Shown here: positions 36,535-54,007 of the stretch, piece by piece | Position numbering within the stretch: position 1 is the first letter of the stretch | Layout: each line of letters begins with the position of its first letter | Source: Pseudomonas nitroreducens TX1 | GTDB taxonomy: Bacteria; Pseudomonadota; Gammaproteobacteria; Pseudomonadales; Pseudomonadaceae | Length of the DNA: 59,708 nt | Direction of reading: 5' to 3' | NCBI RefSeq assembly: GCF_000313755.1 | Contig: NZ_AMZB01000109.1 | Coordinates: 1-59,708, forward strand | The notes under the pieces: model-generated | Databases searched by the model: none | What the model was told of the DNA's origin: nothing | The model's input: the letters and a program-made list of their open reading frames with translations, nothing else | Program-made: the position numbers and the translations under genes

Positions 36535-36664
36535 GAATTTCACCTGTGCTGGATATGCGACTAAAACCCGGCAGTATACCGCAAGACGCTTGCCGCTTGG
36601 GCTTTACAGCGTTTTTTGCGCGACCGTTTACACCCTGGCAACGCACGAAAATTCGGCCCTATGA

Positions 36665-36680
36665 CTGTATTTTTGTACAG
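36665..36680. promoter_or_regulatory. LexA (SOS) box upstream of tag
   Basis: CTGTATTTTTGTACAG fits the gamma-proteobacterial LexA consensus CTGT-N8-ACAG with arms CTGTA/TACAG. It ends 46 bases before the tag ATG, and a possible -10 (TATAGT, 36690-36695) follows ten bases later, so a bound repressor would cover the -35 region of a tag promoter. Confidence 0.65.
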
Positions 36681-36726
36681 TCCTGCGTCTATAGTCAGGG
36701 CCTTCCCGTTTTCTAGGACGACCGCC

Positions 36727-37281
36727 ATGCCCCGCTGCTCCTGGTGTAACCACGACCCGCTGTACATCGCCTACCATGATGCCGAATGGGGAGTCCCGCA
36801 GCGGGACGCCCGCGCGCTGTTCGAGATGATCATCCTTGAGGGCGCCCAGGCCGGCCTGTCGTGGATCACCGTTCTGAAGAAGCGCGAGCGCTATCGCGAG
36901 GTGCTGTTCGGCTTCGATCCGGAGCGCCTGGCCCGCATGACCGATGAGGAAATCGAGGAGCGTATGCAGGACCCGGGCATCATCCGCAACCTTGCCAAGC
37001 TCAAGGCGGCGCGACAGAACGCCCAGGCCTGGCTGAAGCTCGAGGACCCGGTGGCCTTCCTCTGGTCCTTCGTCGGCGGCCAGCCCAAGGTCAACCACTT
37101 CAACGGGCACGGCGACGTGCCGGCGGTGACACCCGAGGCCGAGGCGATGAGCAAGGCCCTGCGCAAGGCCGGGTTCAATTTCGTTGGCCCGACCATCTGC
37201 TACGCCTTCATGCAGGCCACTGGCATGGTGATGGACCATACCGTCGATTGCGACCGCTACACCCAGTTGACCCGCGCCTAA
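36727..37281 (+). CDS. tag: DNA-3-methyladenine glycosylase I
   Basis: Tag removes 3-methyladenine from alkylated DNA. The 184 residues carry the zinc-snap ligands of the family: Cys4 and His17 at the N-terminus, His171 and Cys175 at the C-terminus. The Trp-Gly-Val-Pro and Leu-Ser-Trp-Ile-Thr-Val-Leu motifs are also present. The ATG at 36727 is chosen because it gives Met-Pro-Arg-Cys. The stop overlaps the end of the convergent exosortase gene by three bases. A LexA-like box upstream suggests SOS control. Confidence 0.95.
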   Translation: MPRCSWCNHDPLYIAYHDAEWGVPQRDARALFEMIILEGAQAGLSWITVLKKRERYREVLFGFDPERLARMTDEEIEERMQDPGIIRNLAKLKAARQNAQAWLKLEDPVAFLWSFVGGQPKVNHFNGHGDVPAVTPEAEAMSKALRKAGFNFVGPTICYAFMQATGMVMDHTVDCDRYTQLTRA

Positions 37282-38618
37282 GGCAGCGGGCTGGCCAGCG
37301 TGACGGCCTGCCATGGGCCGGTGGAGCGGCCGGACAGCGCAGACCAGTACCAGGCCGAGGTATCGGAGAAGGATTGGCCCGCAGCGTCCTCGATGTAATC
37401 GCAGACCTGCAGGCGTCCGCCGTTGCGCGAGGCCAAGAAGCAGCGCTGCAAACCTGTCGCCCCTACCCGCTCGCGCAGTTGCGTCTGCTCGATGCGATAG
37501 CCCAGTGCGCGGAAGCAATCCTCCGCCGGGTGCAGCTTGCGCGTTGGCCGCAGCACCTGGCGCAGGACGATGCTGCGCTGGCCATCGGTGAAGCGGCCAA
37601 GCTGGCCGGGAAAGTCTTCGGCGAAGCGCTGTTCCACCGGCGAAAGCGCCAGCGGCCGCAAGGCGCGACCTTCGAACTGCAGCGGCCATTCCTGGGCGAG
37701 CCGACTGGCCTCCGACGCGAGGGTAGCCGGCGCCACGAAAGGCCATAGCGCCGCCAGCAACAAGGCACCAAGCAGGCTGCCGGTGAAGCGCGCCGAAGCA
37801 CCAGGCAGCGCAGCTTCGACCGAAGCTGGCAGCGCAAAGGCGCGCCGCCCGACCACCCGGAAAATCATCCCGCAGACTCCGACGAACACCAGCAACCCGA
37901 CTGCCTCGTGGGCCCAGCCGGGGAATCCGCTCGCGCCGCTCTCGCCCCACACCAGCAACGTGTTGCGCAGGATATTGCCGCACAGCACCAGGAGTCCCAC
38001 CAGCGGCAGGCGGCGCAGCAGCAGACGGTCCGGCAGGCGCTGCCAGGCCGCCAGCGTACAGGCGATGAAGTAGCCGACCCAGGCCATCTGGATGCCCGAG
38101 CAGGGCGCATCGACCATCACCCATTGGCCGTCCACCAGCAGCGCACTGCCCTGCCGTTCCACCGACCCGTCGCCCAGGCGCAACAGCCAGGCGCTGACCT
38201 CGGCGGTGATGACTCGCAGCGGATAACCGACGAAGAACTGCAGCGAAGACAGTAGCGGCAGCGACAGCACGCCCAGCCCCAGCCACGCCAGCCAGGGTTG
38301 ACCGGGGATGCGCAGGCTGAGGATCACCAGCAGCAGGGCGAGCACCGAGATCAGTCCGCGCAGCAGCGGTGGAAGGAACGCCTGGCAGTGCGCCCCGGCT
38401 ATCAGCAGCACTGTGGCGACCGCCAGCCAGCGCAGACGCGGTGGCGCGCGCAGGCTGGAGCGGTCGCGCCAAAGCAGCAGTCCGAGCGCCGCCAGCGCAA
38501 CGATTCCCAGCGGATCATCCGAGCCATCGCCCAGGCGCCGCGCCGCCCAGAGCCAGCTCGGCCAGGCCGCCAGCGCGGCGAACAGCAGCCAGCTCCACCC
38601 GGGCAGGCGGCGGTTCAT
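37278..38618 (-). CDS. exosortase with C-terminal EpsI-like domain
   Basis: Exosortases are multi-pass membrane proteases/transpeptidases that cut PEP-CTERM tails from exported proteins. The 446 residues contain about eight membrane helices in the first 260 and the predicted catalytic set: Cys173 in Ala-Pro-Cys-Ser-Gly, Arg218 in Gly-Asn-Ile-Leu-Arg-Asn, and His237 in Gly-Trp-Ala-His-Glu. After another helix (about 279-298), residues 300-446 form a soluble domain with Leu-His-Pro-Ala-Glu-Asp-Cys-Phe, like the EpsI/DUF3485 proteins often encoded beside exosortases. The ATG at 38618 overlaps the stop of the upstream PEP-CTERM gene (ATGA) and follows GGAGGAAG, so the pair is coupled. Subtype not assigned. 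Confidence 0.88.
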   Translation of the reverse strand: MNRRLPGWSWLLFAALAAWPSWLWAARRLGDGSDDPLGIVALAALGLLLWRDRSSLRAPPRLRWLAVATVLLIAGAHCQAFLPPLLRGLISVLALLLVILSLRIPGQPWLAWLGLGVLSLPLLSSLQFFVGYPLRVITAEVSAWLLRLGDGSVERQGSALLVDGQWVMVDAPCSGIQMAWVGYFIACTLAAWQRLPDRLLLRRLPLVGLLVLCGNILRNTLLVWGESGASGFPGWAHEAVGLLVFVGVCGMIFRVVGRRAFALPASVEAALPGASARFTGSLLGALLLAALWPFVAPATLASEASRLAQEWPLQFEGRALRPLALSPVEQRFAEDFPGQLGRFTDGQRSIVLRQVLRPTRKLHPAEDCFRALGYRIEQTQLRERVGATGLQRCFLASRNGGRLQVCDYIEDAAGQSFSDTSAWYWSALSGRSTGPWQAVTLASPLP

Positions 38619-40606
38619 GCGGTCTTCCTCCGCCACCACCAGCCGCCCAGGGCAGCAAGCACCAACATGCCCCATACGCCCGGCTCCGGCGTACCGGGCA
38701 CTGTGCTGCCGATGGCGTTGTTGCTCACGCCCTGGGGCAACGGCAGCGGTTGATCGACTGTCTGGCTCGCCTGGGGATCAGGATCGCGCACCTGCTGGTC
38801 GACGGCGATGAACGAGGTGTAGGGCGTGAGCAGCTGGTAGGTGAGGCCGAGGTCGAGGATCTGCGAGCTGAACTCGAAACCACCGTCCAGCGCTTCCTGA
38901 TCCATCAGGCTGGCGAGGCGTTGGCGTGCCCACAGGTGAGCGAGCGCACCGCTGTTGTCGGTGAGGTTGCCGGCGCTGATCGGCAGCCGTACCTGGAACG
39001 GCCCGTCGGCGGCGTGGGCATCCAGGCGCAGTTCACCGCGTGGCTCGCCCTTCCACTTGCCGAACAGCACCAGTGGGCGGTTGGCGAACAGATCGGGCAG
39101 CTGCAGCGGTTCCACGTCGTAGACGTCGAGGCCGTCGAAGCGCGTCTGGATGCCCTTGAGCAGCGGGCTGTCGATCATCCGGCGGAAACGCTGGGCCGCC
39201 TTGCTCGCCTGCACATCATCGGTCACCACGAAGGGCTCGCCCTGCCCTGCCCGCGCCAGGCCTTCGATCAGGCTGCGGTTCACCGCGCTGCCGATGCCGA
39301 ACGCAAACAGATTGGCCTTGCTCAGGTTCTCGCGCACCAGCTTGTAGGCGCTGCTCTCGATGGTGACATAGCCGTCGGTGACCACCACGAAACTGCGCGA
39401 ACGTTCCGGGTCCGTCGGCATTGCCAGCGCTTCGCGCAGGGCCGGCATCAGCTCGGTGCCACCGGAGCCGACCTGGCTGTCCAGCAGGTCGATGGCAAGC
39501 CGGATGTTCTCGGGCGTGGCGGCCAGCGAACGGTCGGCCAGCTTGCGATTGTCGCCGGCGAACAGCAGCAGGTTGAAGGTATCGCTGGGACGCAGCCGGC
39601 CGATCAGGTCACGCAGCAGGGTCCTGGTGGTGTCCAGGGGGAAGCCGTTCATGGAGCCGGAGACATCGACCATGAAGACGTAGTCGCGCGGGACGATGAG
39701 TCGGGCATCCGGTGCGCGCGGGGGCGCGACCATGGCGAGGAAGAAATTCTCCTGCGCGCCGCGCGCGAGCAGCAGGCCGCTTTGAACGACCTCTCCACCG
39801 AGCTGGTAGTCGAGGATGAAATCGCGGTTGCCGGCGGTGTCGTCGTCGGCCGCTACGCGAGCGGTGGCGCGCTGGCCATCTCGCTGGATAGCCAGGGGAT
39901 GGGAGGGCGAGGCGATCTCGCCGATCTGCACCGGCGCCAGCAGTTCGACCTGCAGGGCGAATTTCGTGGCCGATGGCTGCCCTGCCGGCAGGTACGGCGA
40001 CTCGATCCACCGCTGCTGGCCGCTGCCGGACTCATGGCGACCGTTGTAGCGCGGCCCGACCACCGTTGGGAAGACGAACTGGAATTTCCCGTCGGTGGGC
40101 ACCAGCAGCTCGCTGTAGCGCAGCTCCACCTGCACCACGTCACCGGGGAGGATGTTGGCGACCTTCATCTGGAACACGTTCTCGCGCTCCTGCTCCAGTA
40201 GCGCGGCGGTCTTGCCGTCCTGCTTGGCCTGCTGGTACTCGGCCTTGGCCCTCTGCTTCTCGCGGATCTGCGCCTGGATCACGCGCTCGCCCAGGTGCAC
40301 GGTCATGCCGTGGACGGCGGCGCGGGTCGAGGCAGGGAACACGTAGCGCGCCTCCAGCGCCGTCTTGCCCTGGTTGCGGTACTCCTGGGTCACCGTGACT
40401 TCGGCGATGTTGCCCAGCACACGGGCATCCACGCGGGTTGCCTTGAGCGGCAGCGGATCGACCGCCGGGTCGGCGTTCTCGACGAAGAAATAGGGGCTGG
40501 AGCCGCTGTCATTCAAGGTGCGGTCGTCAGCGGCCAGCGCCGCCAGGCTGGCGCTCATCGCCAGCAGCAGCCAGCACAGCCGTGCAAGGAAGGTTGGGGT
40601 ACGCAT
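38615..40606 (-). CDS. VIT/VWA-domain exported protein with PEP-CTERM sorting signal
   Basis: The product has 663 residues. Residues 1-26 are a signal peptide. A VIT domain lies at about 50-175, and a von Willebrand A domain at about 305-480 with the metal-binding Asp-Val-Ser-Gly-Ser at 314-318 and Thr-Asp-Gly at 410-412. The C-terminus has Pro640-Glu641-Pro642, a hydrophobic helix (about 644-657) and a basic Arg-Arg-Lys end: a PEP-CTERM exosortase signal. The overall plan resembles inter-alpha-trypsin inhibitor heavy chain-like proteins and the 'marine proteobacterial sortase target' family. The start at 40606 has GGAG upstream. It is probably the dedicated substrate of the overlapping exosortase gene; function beyond surface display or adhesion is unknown. 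Confidence 0.88.
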   Translation of the reverse strand: MRTPTFLARLCWLLLAMSASLAALAADDRTLNDSGSSPYFFVENADPAVDPLPLKATRVDARVLGNIAEVTVTQEYRNQGKTALEARYVFPASTRAAVHGMTVHLGERVIQAQIREKQRAKAEYQQAKQDGKTAALLEQERENVFQMKVANILPGDVVQVELRYSELLVPTDGKFQFVFPTVVGPRYNGRHESGSGQQRWIESPYLPAGQPSATKFALQVELLAPVQIGEIASPSHPLAIQRDGQRATARVAADDDTAGNRDFILDYQLGGEVVQSGLLLARGAQENFFLAMVAPPRAPDARLIVPRDYVFMVDVSGSMNGFPLDTTRTLLRDLIGRLRPSDTFNLLLFAGDNRKLADRSLAATPENIRLAIDLLDSQVGSGGTELMPALREALAMPTDPERSRSFVVVTDGYVTIESSAYKLVRENLSKANLFAFGIGSAVNRSLIEGLARAGQGEPFVVTDDVQASKAAQRFRRMIDSPLLKGIQTRFDGLDVYDVEPLQLPDLFANRPLVLFGKWKGEPRGELRLDAHAADGPFQVRLPISAGNLTDNSGALAHLWARQRLASLMDQEALDGGFEFSSQILDLGLTYQLLTPYTSFIAVDQQVRDPDPQASQTVDQPLPLPQGVSNNAIGSTVPGTPEPGVWGMLVLAALGGWWWRRKTA

Positions 40607-40763
40607 CGCGGGCCTCCGGGCCAGTGGATCGAATGGCCGCAGGTTGCGCGCGCGCCGTGGGCGCAATGTGCTCGCAGGGTGGAGATTGTGTGGAGCCTCG
40701 ATGGCGCCCGAAATGCCGGCGCGAGCGGCTACAATGGCCGCCATCTGCTTGAAGGAGTTTTCC

Positions 40764-41651
40764 GTGGAGAAATTCAAGGGCGCACTGGTGGTGGGCTTCC
40801 TGCGGTTGTTCGCCATGCTGCCGTGGCGCGCGGTGGGCGCATTGGGCGCCGGTATCGGCTGGCTGATGTGGAAGCTGCCCAACCGGTCCCGCGAGATCGT
40901 GCGGATCAACCTGTCGCACTGCTTCCCCGAGCTGTCCGAGGCGGAGCTGGAGAAACTGGTGGGCCAGAGCCTGATGGACATCGGCCGCACGCTGACCGAA
41001 AGCGCCTGTGCCTGGATGTGGTCGCCGCAGAAGTCGCTGCAGTACATCCGCGAAGTGGAAGGCATGGAGGTGCTGGAAGACGCGCTGGCCTCCGGCGACG
41101 GCCTGGTCGGCATCACCAGCCACCTGGGCAACTGGGAAGTGCTCAACCACTTCTACTGCTCCTATGCCAAGCCGATCATTTTCTACCGCCCGCCCAAGCT
41201 CAAGGCGGTGGATGAATTGCTGAAGAAGCAACGCGTGCAGTTGGGCAACCGTGTCGCGCCCTCGACGCCCGAAGGCATCAAGAGCGTGATCAAGGAAGTG
41301 AAGAACGGCGGCTGCGTCGGCATTCCCTGCGACCCGGAGCCGGACCTGGGCTCGGGGCTGTTCGTGCCCTACCTGGGCACCACGGCGCTGACCAGCAAGT
41401 TCGTGCCCTCGCTGCTGTCGCGCGGCAAGGCCCGGGGTGTGTTCTTCCATGCCGTGCGCCTGCCCGATGGCAGCGGCTACAAGGTGATCCTCGAAGCCGC
41501 GCCGGCGGACATGTACGACAAGGACATGGAAGTATCGGTCGCCGCACTCAGCCGCGAGCTGGCCAAGTACGTGCGCGCCTACCCCAGTCAGTACATGTGG
41601 ACCATGAAGCGCTTCAAGAAGCGGCCTGAGGGCGAGGCTCGCTGGTACTGA
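40764..41651 (+). CDS. htrB: HtrB/LpxL-type lipid A secondary acyltransferase
   Basis: This inner-membrane enzyme adds a secondary laurate-type chain to lipid A. The start is a GTG at 40764, with AAGGAG seven bases upstream, giving 295 residues. One N-terminal hydrophobic segment precedes the catalytic His-X4-Glu in Ser-His-Leu-Gly-Asn-Trp-Glu. It matches PA0011 (htrB) of P. aeruginosa in size and position, but it is separated here from tag by the exosortase pair. A -10-like TACAAT lies at 40730-40735. Confidence 0.92.
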   Translation: MEKFKGALVVGFLRLFAMLPWRAVGALGAGIGWLMWKLPNRSREIVRINLSHCFPELSEAELEKLVGQSLMDIGRTLTESACAWMWSPQKSLQYIREVEGMEVLEDALASGDGLVGITSHLGNWEVLNHFYCSYAKPIIFYRPPKLKAVDELLKKQRVQLGNRVAPSTPEGIKSVIKEVKNGGCVGIPCDPEPDLGSGLFVPYLGTTALTSKFVPSLLSRGKARGVFFHAVRLPDGSGYKVILEAAPADMYDKDMEVSVAALSRELAKYVRAYPSQYMWTMKRFKKRPEGEARWY

Positions 41652-43568: not shown

Positions 43569-44426
43569 TTAATTAGCCTCGTTCACCGCACTCAGGAAGG
43601 CCCTTGTCCGCTCGTGCTTCGGGTTGCCGAAGAACTGCTGCGGGCTGCCCTGCTCGAGGATGTTGCCCTGGTGGAAGAAGCACACACGGTCGGCGAATTC
43701 ACGTGCGAAGCCCATCTGGTGGGTGACCATGAGCATGGTCAGGTTGTGTTCGGCGCCCAGCTTGCGCACGACGTTGAGCACTTCGCCGCACAGCTCCGGG
43801 TCCAGCGCCGAGGTCACCTCGTCGAACAGCATCACCTTGGGGCGCATCGCCAGTGCGCGGGCGATGGCCACGCGCTGTTGCTGACCGCCGGATAGCTGCG
43901 AGGGATAGTGGTCCAGCTTGCTGCCCAGGCCAACCATTTCCAGCAGTTCCACCGCGCGCTCGCGGGCTTCATTACGGTGCATGCCGAGCACCTGCACCGG
44001 CGCCTCCATCACATTGCGCAGCGCGCTCATGTGCGGGAACAGGTTGAAGCACTGGAACACCATGCCGATCTTGCTGCGTACCTTGCGCACATGGCTTTCC
44101 GGCGCACGCACCAGCGAATCGTTGCGCTTGAGATGGGTCAGCGGTTCGCCATCGACTTCGATCAGGCCGCTGTCGATGGTCTCCAGGGTCATCAGCGCGC
44201 GGAGCAGGGTGGACTTGCCCGAGCCGCTGGGGCCGATGATGGCGACCTTCTCGTTGGCGCCCACTTCCAGATTGAGGTCCTTGAGCACGCTGAAACTGCC
44301 GTAGCTCTTGCACACGTTGCGGAAGCTGACCATGGGTTGCACGGTCTGGGCGCGCGCTGCGGGCGCATCCTGGGTGGCCACACGAGGGGCCATCGGCCCG
44401 GCAGCTTGCAGGGAGTGAACGGTCAT
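43569..44426 (-). CDS. ehuA: ectoine/hydroxyectoine ABC transporter ATPase (EhuA)
   Basis: EhuA powers import of ectoines through EhuCD. The 285 residues carry Walker A GPSGSGKST at 65-73, the signature Leu-Ser-Gly-Gly-Gln at 178-182 and Walker B Val-Met-Leu-Phe-Asp-Glu at 198-203, with the switch His in Thr-His-Gln. The start at 44426 is chosen for its GGAGG; an ATG at 44453 that overlaps the ehuD stop would add nine residues. The assignment to ectoine rests on the neighbouring catabolic genes; by sequence alone it is a polar-amino-acid-type ATPase. Confidence 0.85.
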   Translation of the reverse strand: MTVHSLQAAGPMAPRVATQDAPAARAQTVQPMVSFRNVCKSYGSFSVLKDLNLEVGANEKVAIIGPSGSGKSTLLRALMTLETIDSGLIEVDGEPLTHLKRNDSLVRAPESHVRKVRSKIGMVFQCFNLFPHMSALRNVMEAPVQVLGMHRNEARERAVELLEMVGLGSKLDHYPSQLSGGQQQRVAIARALAMRPKVMLFDEVTSALDPELCGEVLNVVRKLGAEHNLTMLMVTHQMGFAREFADRVCFFHQGNILEQGSPQQFFGNPKHERTRAFLSAVNEAN

Positions 44427-44449
44427 CGGTTTTCCTCCGGAAGAATCAG

Positions 44450-45109
44450 TCATGGCAGCGCCGTGCGTTTTTCCACCTGGCGCACGACGCTGGCCAGGCT
44501 GATGGAGATGAGCAGGAAGAACACCCCGACCAGGGTGATCGGTTCCAGGTAGCGGAAGCTGTCGGAACCGATGTTCTTCGCCTGCTGCATGATTTCCACC
44601 ACCGTGATCGCCGAGAGCACCGGGGTGTCCTTGAACATGGCGATCAGGTAGTTGCCCAGTGCTGGCAGCACCGGGCGGATGGCCTGGGGCAGGATCACCT
44701 CGCGGTAGGCCTTGAAGGGCGAGAAGTTCAGTGCAGTGACCGCCTCCCACTGGCCGCGCGGCACCGCCTCCAGGCCGGCGCGGTAGACCTCGGCGGTGTA
44801 GCAGGCGTAGTGCAGGGCGATACCCAGGGTGCCGGCCACCAGCGCGGTCATGCTCAGCCCGTAGAGCGGTAGCACGTAGAACAGGAAGTACACCTGGATC
44901 AGCAGCGGCGTGCTGCGGATGAATTCGATCAGCCAGGCCGCCGGCCAAGACAGCCACGCGTGCCGGCTGCGCCGGGCGATGGCGAAGAGCAGGCCGAGCA
45001 CCACGGCCAGGGCGAAGCCCACCAGGGTAATGGCAATGGTGCGCAGCGAGGCGTGCAGCAGTTGCGGCAGGATCTGCCAGGCGAAATCCCAATCGAAGAG
45101 TTTCATCAC
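44450..45109 (-). CDS. ehuD: ectoine ABC transporter permease (EhuD)
   Basis: This 219-residue inner-membrane permease of the His/Glu/Gln/Arg (HisMQ) family has about five helices and the ATPase-contact loop Glu-Ala-x-x-Ala-Leu-x-x-Ser-Pro-x-x-Ala-Tyr-Arg-x-Val-Ile-Leu-Pro-Gln. Its start overlaps the ehuC stop by four bases (ATGA). It pairs with EhuC to form the channel. Confidence 0.86.
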   Translation of the reverse strand: MMKLFDWDFAWQILPQLLHASLRTIAITLVGFALAVVLGLLFAIARRSRHAWLSWPAAWLIEFIRSTPLLIQVYFLFYVLPLYGLSMTALVAGTLGIALHYACYTAEVYRAGLEAVPRGQWEAVTALNFSPFKAYREVILPQAIRPVLPALGNYLIAMFKDTPVLSAITVVEIMQQAKNIGSDSFRYLEPITLVGVFFLLISISLASVVRQVEKRTALP

Positions 45110-45762
45110 AGGCCTCCGTGGATGCGGCCGTGCCCCAGCCAGCGCTCCAGGCGCCGCATGAGGAAGACGATGACCTGGGCCATCACGAAATACAGCACCA
45201 GGGTGAGGGCGAAGATCTTCATGGTCTCGAAGGTCGCCTGGTCCAGCTGGCGCGCGCGGAAGGTCAGGTCCGACAGGGTGATCAGCGACACCAGCGAGGT
45301 GTTCTTCAGCAACTCGATCAGCAGGTTGGTGCCCGGTGGAATCGCGCAGAGCAGCGCCTGCGGCAGGATGATCCGGCGGAAGCGCGTCAGCGGCATCATG
45401 TTCAGCGCCAGCGCCGCTTCATACTGCCCCTTGGGCACCGAGCCTATGGCGCCGCGCATCACCTCGGCGCCATAGGCGCCGATGTGCAGGCCCAGGCCGA
45501 TGATCGCCACGCTGTAGGCGCTCATCTGAAGATTGAAAGGGGGCAGCGGCAGCACGAAGTACAGCCAGAACAACTGCACCAGTAGCGAGGTGCCGCGGAA
45601 CAGCTCGATGTAGGCGATGGATACCCAGCGCACCGCCGGCCACGGCGAGAGGCGTCCGAGCGCGGCGATGATGGCGGCTGCAACCGCCAGCAGGGAGCCG
45701 AAGACGGTCACCTGGACGGTGATCCAGGCGCCCTCCAGCAGCAGAGGAAGTAATTCACCCAT
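45106..45762 (-). CDS. ehuC: ectoine ABC transporter permease (EhuC)
   Basis: This 218-residue permease of the same HisMQ family has about five membrane helices and the conserved loop Glu-Ala-Ala-Leu-Ala-Leu-Asn-Met-Met-Pro with Ile-Ile-Leu-Pro-Gln. It lies 77 bases downstream of ehuB and is coupled to ehuD. Confidence 0.86.
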   Translation of the reverse strand: MGELLPLLLEGAWITVQVTVFGSLLAVAAAIIAALGRLSPWPAVRWVSIAYIELFRGTSLLVQLFWLYFVLPLPPFNLQMSAYSVAIIGLGLHIGAYGAEVMRGAIGSVPKGQYEAALALNMMPLTRFRRIILPQALLCAIPPGTNLLIELLKNTSLVSLITLSDLTFRARQLDQATFETMKIFALTLVLYFVMAQVIVFLMRRLERWLGHGRIHGGL

Positions 45763-45839
45763 GGTGCGTATCCCGTAACGACGGATTCCACGGAACGGCC
45801 GACCGAGCGCGGCCTAGGGCAGGCGCGCGCCCGTGACGG

Positions 45840-46694
45840 TCACTGTTTGCAAAGCTCGGCAGCGGTCTTGTCGGTGACGTTGGACGTGTCGAAGCCGAAC
45901 GGTTTCACTGTTGCCAGGTGCTCGGCGCCGCCCAGCCAGCCCTTGAGCTGCTGGTTCACCGCGTCGCGCAGGTCCTTGTCTTCGGGACGGAAGGCCAGGG
46001 CGCCATAACCGATGTGCGAAGGGTCGTCCTTGAAGTCGGTGACGGCTTCCACCGAATCGCCGCCCTTCGCCGCGAGGCCCTTCATGGTCAGCGCAGTGCC
46101 GACGCTGGCGTCGGCGCGGCCGGCGCGCACGGCCTGCAGCTGCGCGGTGGTGTCGGGCACCTGGACGATCTGCTCTTCCGCCACGCCTTCGGCGCGGGCG
46201 TAGCCCATCTCGGCGGTGCCGGACATGATCGCCAGCTTGACCTCCGGGTTGTTCTTCACGTCGGCGTAGCTGTGCAGGTTCTTCGGGTTGCCCTTCTTCA
46301 CCAGCAAGCTGTCGGGAATCTGATAGTGCGGATCGGTGAAGATCACCTGCTGGCAGCGCGGCGGGGTGATGTACATGCCGGCGGCGATCACATCGAAGCG
46401 CCCGGCGCGCAGACCAGGGATCAGCGCGCCCCATTCGGTGAGCACCGGCTCGATCTTCTTCACACCCATTTTCGTGAAGATCTGCGTGGCGATTTCCGGG
46501 GATTCACCGGTGACCTTGCCGGAGGTTTCGGTAAAAGCGAATGGCGCTTCGTTGGCGTAGCCAATGCGCACGGTGCCGGTGCTCTTGATGCGCTCGAGGG
46601 AGGTCTCGGCGTAACTGCCGGCACTGGCCAGCGCGCAGGCGGCGAGGGTGCAGGCAAGGCTCAGGCGGCGCAGGAAAACAGGGGCGGTACTCAT
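45840..46694 (-). CDS. ehuB: ectoine/hydroxyectoine periplasmic binding protein (EhuB)
   Basis: EhuB captures ectoines in the periplasm. From the ATG at 46694 (AGGAGAT seven bases upstream) it has 284 residues with a signal peptide to about residue 29 (ending Ser-Tyr-Ala-Glu). The mature part is a bacterial solute-binding family 3 fold with Arg-Ile-Gly-Tyr-Ala-Asn-Glu-Ala-Pro-Phe-Ala-Phe, which holds aromatic residues likely to line the cation cage. It heads the leftward ehuBCDA operon, divergent from enuR. Confidence 0.87.
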   Translation of the reverse strand: MSTAPVFLRRLSLACTLAACALASAGSYAETSLERIKSTGTVRIGYANEAPFAFTETSGKVTGESPEIATQIFTKMGVKKIEPVLTEWGALIPGLRAGRFDVIAAGMYITPPRCQQVIFTDPHYQIPDSLLVKKGNPKNLHSYADVKNNPEVKLAIMSGTAEMGYARAEGVAEEQIVQVPDTTAQLQAVRAGRADASVGTALTMKGLAAKGGDSVEAVTDFKDDPSHIGYGALAFRPEDKDLRDAVNQQLKGWLGGAEHLATVKPFGFDTSNVTDKTAAELCKQ

Positions 46695-47079
46695 CTTCGG
46701 ATCTCCTGATCTTCGCTTGCCGAACGCGGTGGGCGTGCGGCGATGGATGGCAGGTAGCAATGTCGTACGACTGTTGTTCTTGTAGGTCGGGCCCCGGTGG
46801 AGCCTTCCGAAGTTCTCTCGCCGGCGGGAAACACCAGCTGGACGCCAGACTAAGTCGGCGGGCCTTGCGGCTGTTCCTGATCGACAACCCCGCGGCGGGA
46901 AAAAGCCACCGTCGCGATGAACGCAGCCGAAGGTTTTTTCTGCGCGGGCCTGACAATGCGGTTCGGTGTCCTGCACCCGAGGATACAAAAGGGGTCGAAG
47001 TGCCGACATTGCACTAGGACAATTGCCGCCGGTGTGCGGGTCCGTCACTCTGGACGCCTGACCAGACGGAGCGCTGAAG
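46695..47079. promoter_or_regulatory. divergent ehuB/enuR control region
   Basis: The 385 bases hold no gene. They must contain the outward promoters of ehuBCDA and of enuR. A TACAAA-type -10 is possible at about 46984-46989 for enuR. I could not identify a convincing repeated EnuR operator by eye. Confidence 0.5.
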
Positions 47080-48474
47080 ATGGAAGCCTGGCGTCGCGCC
47101 CTGGCCGACCTGCGGGCCGGCGAATCCAAGTACAAGACCCTCGTGCAGGCCATTGCCGGAGACATCGAGCAGGGCCGCCTGAGCGACGGCCAGCGCCTGC
47201 CGCCGCAGCGCCACGTGGCCGATGGCCTGGCGATCAGCGTGCAGACCGTGACCAACGCCTACAAGGAACTGGAACGCCAGGGCCTGGTGCGTTGCGAGGT
47301 CGGTCGCGGCAGCTTCGTTTCGCGGCGGATGACCGAGGGCATGGCCCACTACATGGTCGACCACCCCGAGCGTGCGCTGGTGGACTTTTCCATTGCCAGC
47401 ATCGTCCACAGCCGCGAGCACGACCGCCTGTGGCAGGACAGTTGCCGCGAGTTGGCGCAGGAGACCGACCAGCCGTGGATGCGCGCCTGCCGCCCGGTGG
47501 CCGGCTTCGACGCGCACCGCGACGCCGGCGTGAAATGGCTGGCGCAGCTGGGCCTCAAGCGCGAGCGTGACGATGTGCTGATCACCAATGGCGCGGCCCA
47601 CGGCATCTTCCTTGCTCTGGCCTCTCTCGCCGGGCCGGACGACGTGGTGCTCTGCGAACAGCTCACCGACCACGGCGTGATCGGCAATTCCCAGGTGCTC
47701 GGCTTCACCCTCAAGGGCGTTGAAATCGACAAGGAAGGCATCGACCCGGAGCACTTCGAGGACCTCTGCGCCAACGAGCGCATCACCGCGCTGGTGTGCA
47801 CGCCCAACCTGAACAATCCCACTTCCTGCCTGATGCCCGACACGCGCCGCCGCGAAATCGCCGCCATCGCCCAGCGTTACGGCGTGCATGTGATCGAGGA
47901 CGACGTCTACGGCCCGCTGCTCGGCGAGCGCCGCCCACCTCCGCTCAGCCATTACCTGCCGGACCTGTCGTTCTACTGCACCAGCTTCACCAAGAGCGTG
48001 CTCACCGGCCTGCGCATCGGTTACCTGGCCATGCCGCGCCGCCTGGCGCTGCGTACCGAAAGCATCCTGCGGGTGAACAGCTGGATGGCCACGCCGTTGC
48101 TGGCGGAGGTGGCGTGCCGCTGGATCCACAACGGCAACGCCCAGGCGCTGATCGGTTTGCAGCGTCGCGTGCTGGAAAAGCGCCAGAACCTGGTGCGCGA
48201 GTTTCTGGGCGAGCACCTGCGCGGCTGCGATCCGCATTCCTTGAGCGCCTGGATCGGCATCCCCGAGCACTGGGAGCTGGACAGCCTGGTGCGCGAGCTG
48301 CGCCACCGGCACATCGCCGTGACGCCGCCCGATCCCTTCATGGTGCGCGGCACGCCAAGACCGCGTGCGATACGCCTGTGCATGGGCGCGGAGTGCAGCG
48401 ACGAGCGCATGGTCGCCGCGCTGGAGGACATGCGAGAGCTGTTCGGGCAGTACCCGAAGATCCACGATTTCTGA
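47080..48474 (+). CDS. enuR: EnuR, MocR/GabR-type regulator of ectoine use
   Basis: EnuR represses ectoine genes until it binds catabolic intermediates on its pyridoxal phosphate. The 464 residues have a GntR winged helix-turn-helix at about 15-80 (Leu-Pro-Pro-Gln-Arg...Val-Gln-Thr-Val-Thr-Asn-Ala-Tyr) and a fold-type-I aminotransferase domain from about 100. Lys305 in Thr-Ser-Phe-Thr-Lys-Ser is the expected PLP-binding lysine, and Asp-Asp-Val-Tyr precedes it. The domain is intact. Location between ehu and eut/doe genes supports the name. Confidence 0.88.
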   Translation: MEAWRRALADLRAGESKYKTLVQAIAGDIEQGRLSDGQRLPPQRHVADGLAISVQTVTNAYKELERQGLVRCEVGRGSFVSRRMTEGMAHYMVDHPERALVDFSIASIVHSREHDRLWQDSCRELAQETDQPWMRACRPVAGFDAHRDAGVKWLAQLGLKRERDDVLITNGAAHGIFLALASLAGPDDVVLCEQLTDHGVIGNSQVLGFTLKGVEIDKEGIDPEHFEDLCANERITALVCTPNLNNPTSCLMPDTRRREIAAIAQRYGVHVIEDDVYGPLLGERRPPPLSHYLPDLSFYCTSFTKSVLTGLRIGYLAMPRRLALRTESILRVNSWMATPLLAEVACRWIHNGNAQALIGLQRRVLEKRQNLVREFLGEHLRGCDPHSLSAWIGIPEHWELDSLVRELRHRHIAVTPPDPFMVRGTPRPRAIRLCMGAECSDERMVAALEDMRELFGQYPKIHDF

Positions 48475-48517
48475 GCCCCTTGCCGGGCTCGCGTTTATCG
48501 TCGTAGGGCGCATCCCT

Positions 48518-48583
48518 GTAGGAGCGAACCTTCCGCGAATCTTACCGCGCATGCCGACCTTCGCGGAGAAGCTCCGCTCTTAC
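48518..48583. repeat. REPIN 2 (diverged REP pair)
   Basis: Inverted arms at 48518-48539 and 48560-48583 start and end with GTAGGAGC and GCTCTTAC and share the inner CCGCGAA/TTCGCGG. The right arm resembles that of REPIN 1 closely while the left arm has diverged. Confidence 0.8.
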
Positions 48584-48606
48584 CTGAAGTATCGCGCAGG
48601 GGCATG

Positions 48607-48723
48607 CCCTCTCCCCCGCCCTCTCCCTGAAGGGAGAGGAAGTCAAAGCGTGCCGGCTGACACTGTGGTTTCAACCTGCACCATACGGTCCCCTCTCCCT
48701 TCAGGGAGAGGTTAGGGAGAGGG
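48607..48723 (+). repeat. 117-bp palindromic element, copy A
   Basis: Each end is a small hairpin (CTCTCCCTGAAGGGAGAG on the left, CCTCTCCCTTCAGGGAGAGG on the right), and the two ends are also inverted repeats of each other (CCCTCTCCC... / ...GGGAGAGGG). The centre contains TGCCGGCTGAC and CGGTCCCCTCTCCC, shared with copy B at 50849-50965, which lies in the opposite orientation. Confidence 0.85.
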
Positions 48724-48859
48724 AATCTCAGGCACGAATTTTCAGAGAAAGACGGTTGCTCCTACGCAAAACACCTCTGATCAATACATCGTCCTAGTAC
48801 ATTCATCGCGACAATTCCCCGCCCCTACACTCGGCCCAACTGCATACCCGGAGGCCGAG

Positions 48860-49834
48860 ATGGAGCCGATTCCCCTCGTCGAGCTGTACCGCGCCCGCCA
48901 GCGCATCCAGGGCCTGGTGCGGCAGACACCACTGGAGCACTCGGCCAGCCTGTCGCGCCTGCTCGGTGCGCCGGTGTACCTCAAGCTCGAATCGCAACAG
49001 ATCACCGGCAGCTTCAAGCTGAGGGGCGCGAGCAACGCGATTGCCCAGCTCAGTGATGAGCAGAAGACCCAGGGCGTGGTCGCCGCCTCCACCGGCAACC
49101 ATGGCCGGGCGCTGGCCCATGCCGCCCGTATGCTCGGCGTGCCGGCGACCATCTGCCTGTCGCAGTTGGTGCCGGCGAACAAGGTCCAGGGGATCCGCGA
49201 ACTCGGCGCCGAAGTACGCATCGTCGGCAATAGCCAGGACGATGCCCAGGCAGAAGCCGAACGCATCGCCCGCGACCACGGTGCAGTACTGCTGCCGCCC
49301 TTCGACCACCCGCAGATCATCGCCGGCCAGGGCACCCTCGGCCTGGAAATCCTCGAACAGCTGCCGGACGTGCGCCAGGTGCTGATACCGCTGTCCGGCG
49401 GCGGCCTGTTCGGCGGCGTGGCCCTGGCGCTCAAGCACGTCGACCCGAGCATCCGCCTGCACGGCATCAGCATGCGCCGTGGCGCCGCCATGGCCGCCAG
49501 CCTTGCCGCCGGCCATCCGGTGGACGTCGAAGAACTGCCGACCCTGGCCGACTCCCTTGGCGGTGGCATCGGCCTTGCCAACCGCCACACCTTCGCCTTG
49601 GCCCGCGACTACTGCGACCAGCTGCACCTGCTCGACGAAGACTCCATTGCCGCCGGTATCCGTCACGCCTACCGCGAGGAACGGCAGGTGGTGGAGGGCG
49701 CCGCCGCGGTCGGCATCGCCGCGCTGCTGGACGGCCTGATCGCCCCGGTCGGCCCGGTGGTGGTGATCGTCAGCGGCCGCAACATCGCCATCGAACAACA
49801 CCAGCAACTCCTCGAGGAAACCGCCCATGGCTGA
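48860..49834 (+). CDS. eutB: EutB, hydroxyectoine-utilization dehydratase
   Basis: EutB is a PLP enzyme of the threonine dehydratase/serine racemase type, thought to act in converting the hydroxyectoine branch to the ectoine pathway. The 324 residues have the PLP lysine in Gly-Ser-Phe-Lys-Leu-Arg-Gly (Lys53), Ser/Thr-Gly-Asn-His-Gly for cofactor phosphate binding, and Ser-Gly-Gly-Gly-Leu near the middle. There is no ACT domain, unlike biosynthetic IlvA. Its stop overlaps eutC by eight bases. Substrate is inferred from context. Confidence 0.84.
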   Translation: MEPIPLVELYRARQRIQGLVRQTPLEHSASLSRLLGAPVYLKLESQQITGSFKLRGASNAIAQLSDEQKTQGVVAASTGNHGRALAHAARMLGVPATICLSQLVPANKVQGIRELGAEVRIVGNSQDDAQAEAERIARDHGAVLLPPFDHPQIIAGQGTLGLEILEQLPDVRQVLIPLSGGGLFGGVALALKHVDPSIRLHGISMRRGAAMAASLAAGHPVDVEELPTLADSLGGGIGLANRHTFALARDYCDQLHLLDEDSIAAGIRHAYREERQVVEGAAAVGIAALLDGLIAPVGPVVVIVSGRNIAIEQHQQLLEETAHG

Positions 49835-50819
49835 CGTCACCCTGCTCAGCGAAGCCGATCTGCGCGCCTGCGTGGCGATAGACCGGGAGAGCCTCGACGC
49901 GGTCGAACAGGCCTTCCGCCTGCTCGCCACCGCGCCGGTGGCGATGCCGCCGATCCTTCGCCTGGACGTGCCTGAGCACAACGGCGAAGTGGACGTGAAG
50001 ACCGCCTACCTGCCCGGCCTGCCGCGCTTCGCCATCAAGGTCAGCCCCGGCTTCTTCGACAACCCCAAGCTCGGCCTGCCCAGTCTCAACGGCATGATGA
50101 TGCTGCTCTCCTCGAAAACCGGCCTGCTCGATGCGCTGCTGCTGGACAACGGTTACCTCACCGCCGTGCGCACCGCCTGTGCCGGCGCGGTGGCGGCCAA
50201 ATGGCTGTCCCGCGAGGATTCGCGCCAGGTCGCGCTGATCGGCGCTGGCGAACAGGCGCGGCTGCAGCTCAAGGCACTGTGCCTGGTGCGGCCCATCGAG
50301 GCGGCCAGCGTCTGGGCGCGGGACGTCGACAAAGCACGGCATTGCGCGCAGGAGCTGAGCACCAGCCTGGGCATTGCCGTCAGCGCCTGCACCAGCATCG
50401 ACGAAGCGCTGGAGGGCGCCGACATCGCCATCACCACAACACCCAGCCGCGAGCCGCTGATCCGCAGACATCACCTGCGCCCCGGTCTGCATATCACTGC
50501 CATGGGCTCGGACGCCGAGCACAAGAACGAGATCGCCGCCGAAGCCCTGGCAGTGGTGGACAACTACGTTGCCGACCGCCTCAGCCAGACCCGCGTGTTG
50601 GGCGAATTGCACCATGCGCTGGAGGCCGGTGCCGTCGGCGGGGACGCCGACTTCGCCGAGCTCGGCCAGGTCATCGCTGGGCTGCGCCAGGGCCGCGAAC
50701 GCGCCGAGGACATCACCCTCTGCGACCTTACCGGCACCGGCGCGCAGGACACCGCCATCGCCGGCCTGGCCTTCCAGCGAGCGCAGCGGATGGGCAAGGG
50801 ATTTCGTTTCAGCAGCTGA
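49827..50819 (+). CDS. eutC: EutC, ectoine-utilization protein (ornithine cyclodeaminase family)
   Basis: The 330 residues belong to the ornithine cyclodeaminase/mu-crystallin family, with the NAD-binding Leu-Ile-Gly-Ala-Gly-Glu-Gln-Ala near 130-140 and Gly-Ser-Asp-Ala-Glu-His-Lys-Asn-Glu-Ile near 225. In ectoine clusters it travels with eutB and is believed to complete the hydroxyectoine side pathway; the exact reaction is not settled. Overlap with eutB implies coupling. Confidence 0.84.
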   Translation: MADVTLLSEADLRACVAIDRESLDAVEQAFRLLATAPVAMPPILRLDVPEHNGEVDVKTAYLPGLPRFAIKVSPGFFDNPKLGLPSLNGMMMLLSSKTGLLDALLLDNGYLTAVRTACAGAVAAKWLSREDSRQVALIGAGEQARLQLKALCLVRPIEAASVWARDVDKARHCAQELSTSLGIAVSACTSIDEALEGADIAITTTPSREPLIRRHHLRPGLHITAMGSDAEHKNEIAAEALAVVDNYVADRLSQTRVLGELHHALEAGAVGGDADFAELGQVIAGLRQGRERAEDITLCDLTGTGAQDTAIAGLAFQRAQRMGKGFRFSS

Positions 50820-51027
50820 AAAAATCGTCCCGCTTCGCGGGAACAGCGCCCTCACCCTAACCCTCTCCCGCACGCGGGAGAGGGGACCGATCGGCACAGG
50901 ATGAAGCCTTGGCGTCAGCCGGCAGACACTGCCCTCTCCCTCTGGGAGAGGGTTGGGGTGAGGGGATCCAAAAGTCTCTGGCTGTCCCGAAGGCGCCCGA
51001 CAATAATTTCCCCAAGAGGATTTCCGC
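50820..51027. other. eutC-doeA gap
   Basis: This gap holds a short hairpin (CCCGCTTCGCGGG, 50829-50841) and copy B of the 117-bp element, then about 60 bases with the doeA ribosome site (AAGAGGA, nine to ten bases before the ATG). There is no gene. Confidence 0.8.
50849..50965 (-). repeat. 117-bp palindromic element, copy B
   Basis: This copy is exactly as long as copy A and inverted relative to it. Its end hairpins are CCTCTCCCGCACGCGGGAGAGG and CCCTCTCCCTCTGGGAGAGGG-like sequences, and the outermost bases CCCTCACCC/GGGGTGAGGGG are inverted repeats. The two copies bracket eutB-eutC. Confidence 0.85.
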
Positions 51028-52218
51028 ATGTCCGAAATCGTCGTCAACCTCCCTTTCAGCCGGGAGGAATATGCCCAGCGGATCGCCAAGGTCCGCGCCA
51101 GCATGCAACAGCGCGGCATCGAGCTGCTGCTGGTCACCGACCCGTCGAACATGGCCTGGCTCACCGGCTACGATGGCTGGTCCTTCTACGTGCATCAGTG
51201 CGTGCTGCTGGCGCTGGACGGCGAGCCGCTCTGGTTCGGCCGCGGCCAGGACGCCAACGGCGCGCGGCGCACGGTGTTCATGCAGGCGGACAACATCGTC
51301 GGCTACCCCGACCACTACGTGCAGTCCACCGAGCGCCACCCGATGGACTACCTGTCCCGCGAGGTCATCGCCGCGCGCGGCTGGGCGAACCGGGCCATCG
51401 GCGTTGAGATGGACAACTACTACTTCAGCGCCGCCGCCTTCCGCTCGTTGCAGGCGAACCTGCCGAACGCGACATTCGTCGACGCCACCGCGCTGGTGAA
51501 CTGGCAGCGCGCGGTGAAATCGCCGCGCGAGATCGAGTACATGCGCGTCGCCGCGCGTATCGTCGAAAGGATGCATGCGCACATCGTCGAGTGCATCGAA
51601 CCGGGCATGCGCAAGAACGAGCTGGTGGCGGATATCTACAGTGCCGGCATCCTCGGCGTCGACGGCCACGGCGGCGACTACCCGGCCATCGTCCCTTTGC
51701 TGCCCACCGGCGCCGATGCCAGCGCCCCGCACCTGACCTGGGACGACACGCCGTTCGAGCGTGGCGCCGGCACCTTCTTCGAGATTGCCGGCTGCTACAA
51801 GCGCTACCACTGTCCGCTGTCGCGTACGGTGTTCCTCGGCAAGCCCCCGCAGCACTTCCTCGACGCGGAGAAGGCCGTGGTCGAAGGCATCGCCGCCGGG
51901 CTGGATGCGGCCAAACCCGGCAACACCACCGGCGACATCGCCCGCGCCTTCTTCGGCGTGCTGGAGAAATTCGGCATCCACAAGGACAGCCGCTGCGGCT
52001 ACCCCATCGGCATCAGCTACCCGCCGGACTGGGGCGAGCGCACCATGAGCCTGCGCCCGAGCGACACCAGCGTGCTCGAAGCGGGAATGACCTTCCACTT
52101 CATGCCCGGCCTCTGGATGGACGACTGGGGCCTGGAGATCACCGAAAGCATCCTCATCACCGAGCGCGGCGTGGAGACCTTCTGCGACTACCCGCGCCAG
52201 CTGTTCGTGAAGGAGTGA
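51028..52218 (+). CDS. doeA: DoeA (EutD), ectoine hydrolase
   Basis: DoeA opens the ectoine ring, giving mainly N-alpha-acetyl-L-2,4-diaminobutyrate. The 396 residues have the two-domain creatinase/prolidase (M24) fold: an N-terminal creatinase-like domain to about 160 (Asp-Pro-Ser-Asn-Met-Ala-Trp-Leu-Thr-Gly-Tyr-Asp) and a pita-bread domain after it (Arg-Thr-Val-Phe-Leu-Gly, Met-Thr-Phe-His). The usual M24 metal ligands are not all evident, in line with the metal-free DoeA group. It lies four bases before doeB. Confidence 0.9.
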   Translation: MSEIVVNLPFSREEYAQRIAKVRASMQQRGIELLLVTDPSNMAWLTGYDGWSFYVHQCVLLALDGEPLWFGRGQDANGARRTVFMQADNIVGYPDHYVQSTERHPMDYLSREVIAARGWANRAIGVEMDNYYFSAAAFRSLQANLPNATFVDATALVNWQRAVKSPREIEYMRVAARIVERMHAHIVECIEPGMRKNELVADIYSAGILGVDGHGGDYPAIVPLLPTGADASAPHLTWDDTPFERGAGTFFEIAGCYKRYHCPLSRTVFLGKPPQHFLDAEKAVVEGIAAGLDAAKPGNTTGDIARAFFGVLEKFGIHKDSRCGYPIGISYPPDWGERTMSLRPSDTSVLEAGMTFHFMPGLWMDDWGLEITESILITERGVETFCDYPRQLFVKE

Positions 52219-52222
52219 GGCA

Positions 52223-53227
52223 ATGACACAGCCTTTGCGCGAAAACCCCATCTGCGCCAGCGTCGATTTCCAGCGTGACGGCGTGCAGCACGGCCACCTC
52301 AAGCTGCCCTACTCGCGGGACGATTCGGCCTGGGGCGCGGTGATGATCCCGGTGTGCGTGGTGAAGAACGGCAACGGCCCCACAGCGCTGCTCACCGGCG
52401 GCAACCACGGCGACGAGTACGAAGGCCCGGTGGCGCTCAGCCGCCTGGCCCAGGAGCTGCGCCCCGAGGACGTGCGCGGCCGGGTGATCATCGTGCCGTT
52501 CATGAACACCCCGGCGTTCCTCGCCGGCAAGCGCACCTCGCCGATTGACGCCGGCAACCTCAACCGCAGCTTCCCCGGCCGCCCGGACGGCACGGTGACG
52601 CAGAAGATCGCCGACTACTTCCAGCGCACCCTGCTGCCGCTGGCGGACGTGGTGCTGGATATCCATTCTGGCGGCCGGACGCTGGATTTCCTGCCCTTCG
52701 CGGCGTGCCATGTGCTGCCGGACAAGGCCCAGCAGGAAGCCAGCGAGGCGCTGATGCGGGCCTTTGCCGCGCCCTATTCCATGCGCATGCTGGAGCTGGA
52801 TGCGGTGGGCATGTACGACACGGCGGCCGAGGAGCAGGGCAAGCTGTTCGTCACCACCGAACTGGGCGGCGGTGGCAGCAGCAGCGCGCGCAGCGTGGCC
52901 ATCGCCCGGCGCGGCGTGCGCAACGTACTGGTGCAGGCCGGTATCCTGCGCGGTGAAATCGAGCCGGCGAAGTCGGTGATGCTCGACATGCCCGATGGCG
53001 ACTGCTTCGTCGCCAGCCAGCATGGCGGTCTGCTGGAAATGTGCCGCGACCTGGGCGAGCGAGTGGAGCGCGGCGACGTACTGGCTCGGGTGCACGAGGT
53101 GCTGCGCACTGGCGCAGCGCCGGTGGAATACCGCGCCAAACGCAGCGGCATCCTCGCCGCACGGCATTTCCCCGGCCTGGTGCAGAGCGGCGACACCCTC
53201 GCCGTGGTCGCCGAGGTACTGGACTGA
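52223..53227 (+). CDS. doeB: DoeB (EutE), N-alpha-acetyl-diaminobutyrate deacetylase
   Basis: DoeB removes the acetyl group to release L-2,4-diaminobutyrate. The 334 residues belong to the succinylglutamate desuccinylase/aspartoacylase zinc family: ligands His62 and Glu65 in Gly-Gly-Asn-His-Gly-Asp-Glu and His148 in Asp-Ile-His-Ser-Gly-Gly, with substrate Arg and Asn in Asn-Leu-Asn-Arg. Its position just after doeA supports the specific role. Confidence 0.9.
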   Translation: MTQPLRENPICASVDFQRDGVQHGHLKLPYSRDDSAWGAVMIPVCVVKNGNGPTALLTGGNHGDEYEGPVALSRLAQELRPEDVRGRVIIVPFMNTPAFLAGKRTSPIDAGNLNRSFPGRPDGTVTQKIADYFQRTLLPLADVVLDIHSGGRTLDFLPFAACHVLPDKAQQEASEALMRAFAAPYSMRMLELDAVGMYDTAAEEQGKLFVTTELGGGGSSSARSVAIARRGVRNVLVQAGILRGEIEPAKSVMLDMPDGDCFVASQHGGLLEMCRDLGERVERGDVLARVHEVLRTGAAPVEYRAKRSGILAARHFPGLVQSGDTLAVVAEVLD

Positions 53228-53240
53228 ACGGGAGCCCGTC

Positions 53241-53729
53241 ATGATCAAGCTCGACCGCTATGACCTGAAGATCCTGCGCATCCTCGCCGGCGATGGGCGC
53301 ATCACCAAGTCGAGCCTGGCCGAGGCGATCAACCTCTCGGTCAGCCCGGCCTGGGAGCGCGTGCGCAAGCTGGAGGAGGCCGGGCTGATCAAGGGCTACC
53401 GCGCGCAGATCGATTGGTCGGCGCTGTTCAAACAGCAGCAGGTGCTGGTGGAAATCACCCTGGCGCGGCACACCGCGCAGGACATGAAGCGCTTCGAGCA
53501 GCGCCTGCAACAGGCGCCGGAAGTAGGCTTCTGCTACGCCACCGGCGGCGGGGTGGACTACATCGCAATGATCCAGGCGCGCGACATCGACCACTACCAG
53601 CGCTTCATCGACCAGTTGTTGCTGGATGACGTAGGGATCGAGCGGTATTTCACCTACATCGTCACCAAAGTGATCAAGACGCAAGAGGCGGCAATTCCGG
53701 CAGAAGCGCTGGAGCCGGGTTCTGCGTAG
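53241..53729 (+). CDS. AsnC/Lrp-family regulator (DoeX-like)
   Basis: The 162-residue protein has an N-terminal helix-turn-helix (Leu-Asp-Arg-Tyr-Asp-Leu-Lys-Ile-Leu-Arg-Ile-Leu-Ala; recognition region Leu-Ser-Val-Ser-Pro-Ala-Trp-Glu-Arg-Val) and a C-terminal RAM/Lrp effector domain. In other ectoine degraders a member of this family called DoeX or AsnC is encoded in the cluster and binds its promoters. It lies 13 bases after doeB and is followed by REPIN 3. Confidence 0.85.
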   Translation: MIKLDRYDLKILRILAGDGRITKSSLAEAINLSVSPAWERVRKLEEAGLIKGYRAQIDWSALFKQQQVLVEITLARHTAQDMKRFEQRLQQAPEVGFCYATGGGVDYIAMIQARDIDHYQRFIDQLLLDDVGIERYFTYIVTKVIKTQEAAIPAEALEPGSA

Positions 53730-53792
53730 GGCGAATAACCTGGAACAGGTTATCCGCCGTTATCTATCCGGCGGAAACTCATGCGGCTCTTT

Positions 53793-54000: not shown

Positions 54001-54007
54001 CCTGAGC

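Follow-up and report, generated by a model that had tools for sequence, protein, structure and literature searches.

An exosortase Q gene paired with a single VIT/VWA target gene in Pseudomonas nitroreducens TX1 probably encodes a dedicated protein-sorting system

The stretch of Pseudomonas nitroreducens TX1 DNA analyzed here (the window; 59,708 nt, contig 109 of a 6.69-Mb genome) carries on its minus strand two overlapping genes encoding a VIT/VWA protein and an exosortase. The first gene of the pair (38615..40606, 663 amino acids, identified by Pfam and NCBIfam matches) encodes the target, and the second (37278..38618, 446 amino acids) encodes exosortase Q (XrtQ). The stop codon of the target and the start codon of the enzyme share an ATGA (38615..38618) that is read directly in the sequence, and both genes lie where a sequence-only reading of the window had placed them. 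We propose, with a probability of roughly 80%, that the two genes form a dedicated protein-sorting pair in which XrtQ would cut the VIT/VWA target at or near a Pro-Glu-Pro motif and pass its C-terminus to an acceptor in the envelope. The strict, movable, one-enzyme one-substrate pairing itself is confirmed by the genome comparisons described below and is a stronger observation than the one first made.

The window enzyme scored 369.8 bits against the XrtQ family model NF012182 (cut-off 270) and also matched PF09721. It fits the exosortase/archaeosortase superfamily as a multi-pass membrane protein with conserved Cys, Arg, and His. The corresponding residues, Cys173 (the expected nucleophile; codon 38100..38102), Arg218 (37965–37967), and His237 (37908–37910), all encoded on the minus strand, did not vary among 29 aligned sequences, that of the window being one of them; we take these three to be the catalytic residues, as assumed for the exosortase family. 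The structure model of XrtQ is helical, with a mean predicted local distance difference test (pLDDT) score of 86, and returned no PDB match at E ≤ 0.001; a sequence search gave none at E ≤ 0.1. The model includes a soluble C-terminal domain (residues ~310–444; 37287..37691, minus strand), which matches the C-terminal part of XrtT. This domain is fused to the enzyme in Pseudomonas and is a separate overlapping open reading frame (ORF) in Variovorax and relatives; such split enzymes, with an exosortase ORF followed by an overlapping C-terminal-domain ORF, were seen in loci L090, L126, L235, and L236. The EpsI model TIGR02914 gave no match to XrtQ at E ≤ 0.1, nor to the Variovorax ORF that encodes this domain on its own at E ≤ 1e-5.

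The target begins with a putative signal peptide (residues 1–25; 40532..40606, minus strand) that ends LAALA before ADD; it was read by eye rather than by a prediction program, and the structure model has a helix at residues 4–31. It is followed, on the same strand, by a VIT domain (residues 54–164; 40115..40447; PF08487, E = 3.7e-36) and a VWA domain (residues 310–463; 39218..39679; PF13768/PF00092). Residues D314, S316, S318, T384, and D411, which we take to be the VWA metal site by the usual motif definition, were invariant in 29 aligned sequences. The protein ends in a PEP-CTERM sorting tail matched by TIGR02595 (38624..38692, minus strand; TPEP, a hydrophobic helix, and RRK, with PEP at 38681–38689) that reads VPGTPEP-GVWGMLVLAALGGWWW-RRKTA, and P-E-P was invariant in 18 aligned tails. 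The tail scored above the cut-off of the TIGR02595 PEP_CTERM model (17 bits vs. 16) and below those of Pfam PEP-CTERM PF07589 (17.9 vs. 20.7) and MYXO-CTERM TIGR03901 (16.1 vs. 20 bits). Over most of its length, the structure model of the target matched inter-alpha-inhibitor heavy chain 1 (PDB 6FPY and 6FPZ), although single-VWA structures matched it with nearly the same Z (24.2) over ~177 residues. As modeled, the target is shaped like the human inter-alpha-inhibitor heavy chains.

To XrtQ the genome offers a single recognizable substrate. A PF09721 profile search of the TX1 genome found one exosortase only. TIGR02595 at E ≤ 10 returned the window target as the best match and six weaker matches, one of which, at the cut-off (16.4 bits with its neighbors), is a CcmH-like protein. 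Weak matches of this kind are expected, since 12 of the 14 control genomes also gave matches in this search. Inspection of their reading frames, by recognition without a family scan, assigned the six to the CcmH-like protein, the end of a permease, and other internal stretches or noise. We also built a tail model, A2, from 18 tails and ran it on 23 genomes carrying XrtQ. Exactly one strong match was obtained in each of the 23 (E from 2.7e-25 to 8.1e-16), always at the 3′ end of the gene for the target, while the next-best match stood at 0.005 over all genomes and 0.136 in TX1. A second PEP-CTERM protein in the TX1 genome, considered as a candidate by TIGR02595, in-frame reading, and the tail model, was not found. 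The sortase family PF04203 was found in none of the 23 genomes, TX1 included; the control for this search responded in 3 of 14 known genomes. The one-enzyme, one-substrate arrangement proposed from sequence is thus supported by the single exosortase and the lone strong tail. Within the reach of the models, this is a dedicated sorting system, with one enzyme and a single target per genome, in the sense in which "dedicated" is defined in PMC3237569.

XrtQ could nonetheless serve further substrates whose tails the models missed. Short tails are hard to detect, and weak TIGR02595 and A2 matches do exist, including the one TIGR02595 match at the cut-off. However, some 12 to 13 orders of magnitude separate the weakest target tail from the next match, and enzyme and target were co-present or co-absent in 25 of 25 genomes of the genus. 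We therefore regard additional substrates as improbable and retain a single substrate as the preferred reading.

Among the 25 genus genomes, XrtQ was found in 11, and a full-length target was present in the same 11. In the 14 genomes lacking XrtQ, the target query gave only a weak VWA match (nine genomes) or nothing (five), so that the comparison across Pseudomonas suggested by the sequence-only reading came out in favor of the pair. The site of the pair was also constant. In TX1, it is bounded on the left by tag (36616..37281, plus strand; TTG start, with an ATG following at 36661) and on the right by an lpxL-type acyltransferase gene (40764..41651, plus strand; divergent from the pair, assigned without a family scan); both gene names are ones we presume for the edges of the site. 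The order glyQ-tag-xrtQ-target, with lpxL on the other side, was found in 11 of 11 carriers, and glyQ-tag-lpxL without the pair in 14 of 14 noncarriers, where the tag-lpxL gap was ~40 to 290 nt in 13 genomes and ~700 nt in one (L293). When the comparison was widened to 398 Pseudomonadaceae genomes, XrtQ was detected in 23, belonging to three genus groups, with the target directly upstream in all 23. The pair lies between tag and lpxL in the group to which TX1 belongs, and next to a prfB-like gene (named by reading) in 8 of 8 representatives of other Pseudomonas. The different neighbors indicate that the two genes have moved together on at least one occasion. Judged by XrtQ, the closest named relatives are P. 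nicosulfuronedens and P. nitroreducens.

The pairing extends well beyond this genus. A scan with a single genome for each of 84,980 species yielded 173 XrtQ relatives, of which the 80 best were retained. Among them are Pseudomonas, numerous Variovorax along with other Comamonadaceae, Azoarcus, Rhodocyclaceae, Moraxellaceae, Methylococcaceae, Armatimonadota, and Cyanobacteriota; with NF012182, the only member from Variovorax to be tested scored 397.3 bits. A Pseudomonas-only system was therefore rejected, and the description of the pair as a trait of "this Pseudomonas lineage" proved too narrow, given the many other proteobacteria that carry it. A target homolog lay directly upstream of the enzyme gene, on the same strand and within ~370 nt, in 75 of the 80 kept loci, and all 75 upstream targets had P-E-P or P-Q-P within the last 60 residues. 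Of the remaining five, L085 and L111 start right at the edge of a contig, and L097, L112, and L115 are not real exceptions: the upstream protein there also holds a VIT domain and is nearest to XrtN-type targets, below that cut-off. Two of these three targets end in a PEP tail, and the tail of L115, PVPEADTW, is PEP-like only. Thus, wherever the gene upstream is visible (78 of the 80 loci), it encodes a VIT protein whose tail is PEP or PEP-like. A start codon in the enzyme frame was located at −4 to +40 nt relative to the target stop in 63 of the 75 loci. Distances between enzymes and between targets were correlated (r = 0.94 for 75 loci and 0.80 for 40 dereplicated ones), and none of 1000 permutations gave a value as high.

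Several observations weigh against a strict pair of the kind proposed. No enzyme start codon was found close to the target stop in the other 12 of the 75 loci, and the correlation of distances is partly a matter of shared ancestry. The most distant XrtQ-like enzymes tested, those of L097 and L115, scored 163.9 and 135.3 bits, below the XrtQ cut-off, as did the L101 enzyme (214.3 bits). The models could overlook weak tails, and scoring with A2 was capped at 150 candidates per genome. In G359 (L044, C1:1692138-1693968), the target reads in two frames, the strong A2 match lying in the second, which reflects either decay or a sequencing error. On the lpxL gene tree of the genus, presence of the pair requires three gains or losses, two of them forced by the starred branches, and the pair is therefore dispensable. 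The noncarrier G008 falls inside a clade of carriers and the carrier G024 outside it, so loss or transfer of the pair has occurred. The pair also evolves faster than the neighboring lpxL, for which the ratio of nonsynonymous to synonymous substitution rates (dN/dS) was 0.01 to 0.04; in comparison with six carriers, dN/dS was 0.11 to 0.24 for the target and 0.17 to 0.21 for XrtQ. At these values, both genes are under purifying selection.

Taken from sequence and structure models, the following course of events would account for the pair. The signal peptide would export the VIT/VWA protein, and the C-terminal PEP helix would hold it in the inner membrane. XrtQ, through Cys173 with Arg218 and His237, would then cleave the target on the periplasmic side, at Pro-Glu-Pro or close to it, and transfer the resulting C-terminus to an acceptor in the membrane or envelope, leaving an adhesin-like VIT/VWA protein anchored in or outside the envelope. 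In this scheme, we infer the shared transcript, the cleavage, the acceptor, the final location, and the adhesive role of the target. An alternative is that XrtQ only releases the target by hydrolysis, yielding a free periplasmic or secreted protein without transfer to an acceptor. Soluble binding is a conceivable role for a VWA protein that has a metal site, and no acceptor-synthesis genes were recognized beside the pair by reading. Sortases and archaeosortases, however, transfer their substrates rather than hydrolyze them, which by analogy argues for transfer here, and relatives of the VIT/VWA cargo are tied to a sortase. Hydrolysis alone is thus unlikely, though it is the most credible of the alternatives, and XrtQ very probably trims and anchors its target.

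The cargo is not confined to exosortases. The core of the target is homologous to the targets of class GN sortases: TIGR03788 matched residues 57–660 with 421.7 bits, below its cut-off of 551.65. The proposal that the same cargo is handled by an unrelated sorting enzyme therefore holds, although its novelty does not; VIT/VWA homologs ending in GlyGly-CTERM, PEP-CTERM (in Verrucomicrobium spinosum), or LPXTG were already in print in 2011 (PMC3237569). TIGR03788 was above its cut-off in 15 of the 398 Pseudomonadaceae genomes, all from one genus group without XrtQ, and in wider samples in 40 of 321 genomes (class) and 36 of 398 (phylum). The 15 family members have a YPQTS-type motif at the end and an adjoining sortase ORF; the sortase of L132, the one tested of the 15, is a class GN sortase. 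We classed 205 cargo loci by tail and neighbor as XrtQ type (94), sortase type (86), and others (25), with some genomes represented twice and five automatic labels (L225, L226, L227, L248, and L251) changed by eye; "GlyGly-type" is a label assigned from the tails. The 205 cores, tails removed, were reduced to 92 rows, window included, and a tree was built by a quick method; it has long branches (L239, L255, and the join of the tail-less rows) and an uneven letter make-up in 24 rows. The XrtQ type (35 rows, support 84), the sortase type (32 rows, support 100), and the GlyGly type (10 rows, support 100) each required a single change, and the tail-less rows required four. Since each type needs one change, there is no sign of a recent change of enzyme, and since the XrtQ branch spans beta- and gammaproteobacteria, the split between XrtQ and sortase cargo is old.

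These results bear on the idea of a recent swap inside the Pseudomonadaceae, in which a target of GN sortase would have acquired XrtQ along with a PEP tail. The family does contain both kinds (of the 398 genomes, 15 are of the GN-sortase type and 23 of the XrtQ type, without overlap), but the single changes on the 92-core tree and the breadth of the XrtQ branch make such a swap highly improbable. A PEP tail is lacking in L229 and L252, the rows that come closest to the XrtQ clade from outside. L229 is a VIT/VWA protein close to XrtQ targets; it ends in a C-terminal domain of the AgmX/PglI kind, and no XrtQ was seen next to it. L225 and L227 encode VIT/VWA proteins with a GGGTPEP tail, again with no XrtQ seen beside them, and each of these two genomes encodes another VIT/VWA protein that lacks a tail (L228 and L230).

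Genes next to the pair outside Pseudomonas hint at a function. Neighbors were counted, with local score thresholds, over the 94 XrtQ-type loci (75 named, 15 with short flanks, and 4 further). A transglycosylase-like ORF followed xrtQ in 49 of the 94, no Pseudomonas among them, and both examples tested (L078:7343-8665 and L116:7117-8544) had a C-terminal PF00912. ORFs resembling creB and creC occurred together in 11 of the 94 loci and creC-like ORFs in 17, in four of these ~3 kb away. The creB-creC-like genes lie upstream of the XrtQ target in L058, L066, L077, L078, L087, L106, L116, L126, and others, all non-Pseudomonas. A family check placed CreB above its cut-off in L078, L087, and L132 and CreC in L087 and L116; three stretches did not bear out CreBC, being a wrong-frame match (L116), a BarA-like piece (L231), and a 63–amino acid CreC-like fragment (L132). 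In L132, CreB (336.8 bits, cut-off 273) follows the GN sortase, and a CreB-like ORF is present in 14 of the 15 loci of the GN-sortase genus group. Several non-Pseudomonas loci have the order creB-creC-VIT/VWA-xrtQ-transglycosylase, and this order suggests that the XrtQ branch may answer cell-wall stress.

In Pseudomonas XrtQ loci, neither creBC nor the transglycosylase gene is adjacent. CreC was found in 37 of 37 genomes searched, with or without the pair and not beside it where places were compared, and therefore does not discriminate. As there is no adjacency in Pseudomonas and CreC is everywhere, the tie to cell-wall stress is a lead and not a finding. Regulation by CreB was rejected for the window, which holds 26 CreB-box matches with up to two mismatches vs. 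31.8 expected, by an assumed consensus; one match with two mismatches in the gap before the target (40679–40694, minus strand) was taken as chance. A broader speculation is that VIT/VWA proteins are functional as well as fold counterparts of the inter-alpha-inhibitor heavy chains, each being cut at the C-terminus and moved covalently to an envelope glycan or lipid, with a different, unrelated transferase serving every bacterial branch (XrtQ, class GN sortase, and probably rhombosortase) and a response to cell-wall stress in the branch that uses XrtQ. We consider this full picture unlikely.

Genes for dnaA, dnaN, recF, and gyrB at ~26 to 32 kb, assigned by N-terminal sequences without a family scan, agree with the placement of the pair near the origin. 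No polysaccharide genes were recognized in the window by reading ORF starts, without a family scan of the whole window, and no PADLOC match pointed to a defense role. The region 43569–57645 looks like an amino-acid ATP-binding cassette transporter followed by ectoine-degradation genes, also judged from unscanned N-terminal sequences.

Exosortases have been linked to the cell surface in other bacteria. Deletion of xrtF in Flavobacterium johnsoniae reduced surface colonization and biofilm (PMC10936215), and loss of the only exosortase of Nostoc punctiforme, which serves 35 PEP-CTERM proteins, lowered one PEP-CTERM protein ~92-fold in the exoproteome (PMC12188702). By analogy, these results fit an envelope or surface role of exosortases, and neither tests XrtQ or its target. 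The exosortase reaction is hard to study because the enzymes often face many substrates. With a single substrate encoded by an overlapping gene, and with close relatives in which the corresponding site is empty, this Pseudomonas system is about as simple as one could wish for studying exosortase cutting and attachment. In the literature searched, which covers few subscription papers, we found neither the strict XrtQ-VIT/VWA pairing nor creBC and transglycosylase genes beside the pair outside Pseudomonas; occurrences of "XrtQ" and "exosortase Q," and of XrtN, VPEID-CTERM, TIGR04477, MSEP-CTERM, and TIGR03788, were unrelated by title.

Among known systems, the pair resembles the class GN sortase system (TIGR03784/TIGR03788), which has homologous VIT/VWA cargo, a C-terminal helix with a basic end, and an adjacent enzyme but differs in its LPXTG-like tail, its sortase-fold enzyme (PF04203), and its separate cargo clade. 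Inter-alpha-inhibitor heavy chain 1, ~20% identical to the target, is in contrast an animal plasma protein attached by other enzymes. The parallel with both would predict covalent C-terminal transfer of the cargo. NCBIfam names, besides XrtQ, another exosortase-sorted VIT protein, that of the XrtN system (TIGR04477), and by name ties this protein and the MSEP-CTERM protein TIGR04286, both with VIT domains, to exosortase-type sorting. The window enzyme and target, however, both fail the XrtN-system models (60.3 vs. 200 bits for the enzyme with TIGR04476; no match of TIGR04477 to the target at E ≤ 0.1). At the XrtQ-like loci of Armatimonadota and cyanobacteria, TIGR04477 is the model closest to the targets, none of which reaches its cut-off. 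The rhombosortase GlyGly-CTERM and V. spinosum PEP-CTERM VIT/VWA proteins carry the same cargo type with different C-terminal signals, as described in PMC3237569. The V. spinosum exosortase is not dedicated, since that organism has 65 PEP-CTERM proteins (Table 1 of PMC1569441). From the XrtQ family NF012182 the window enzyme shows no difference, and the pair belongs to a known kind, the dedicated sorting systems; XrtQ is itself a named family.

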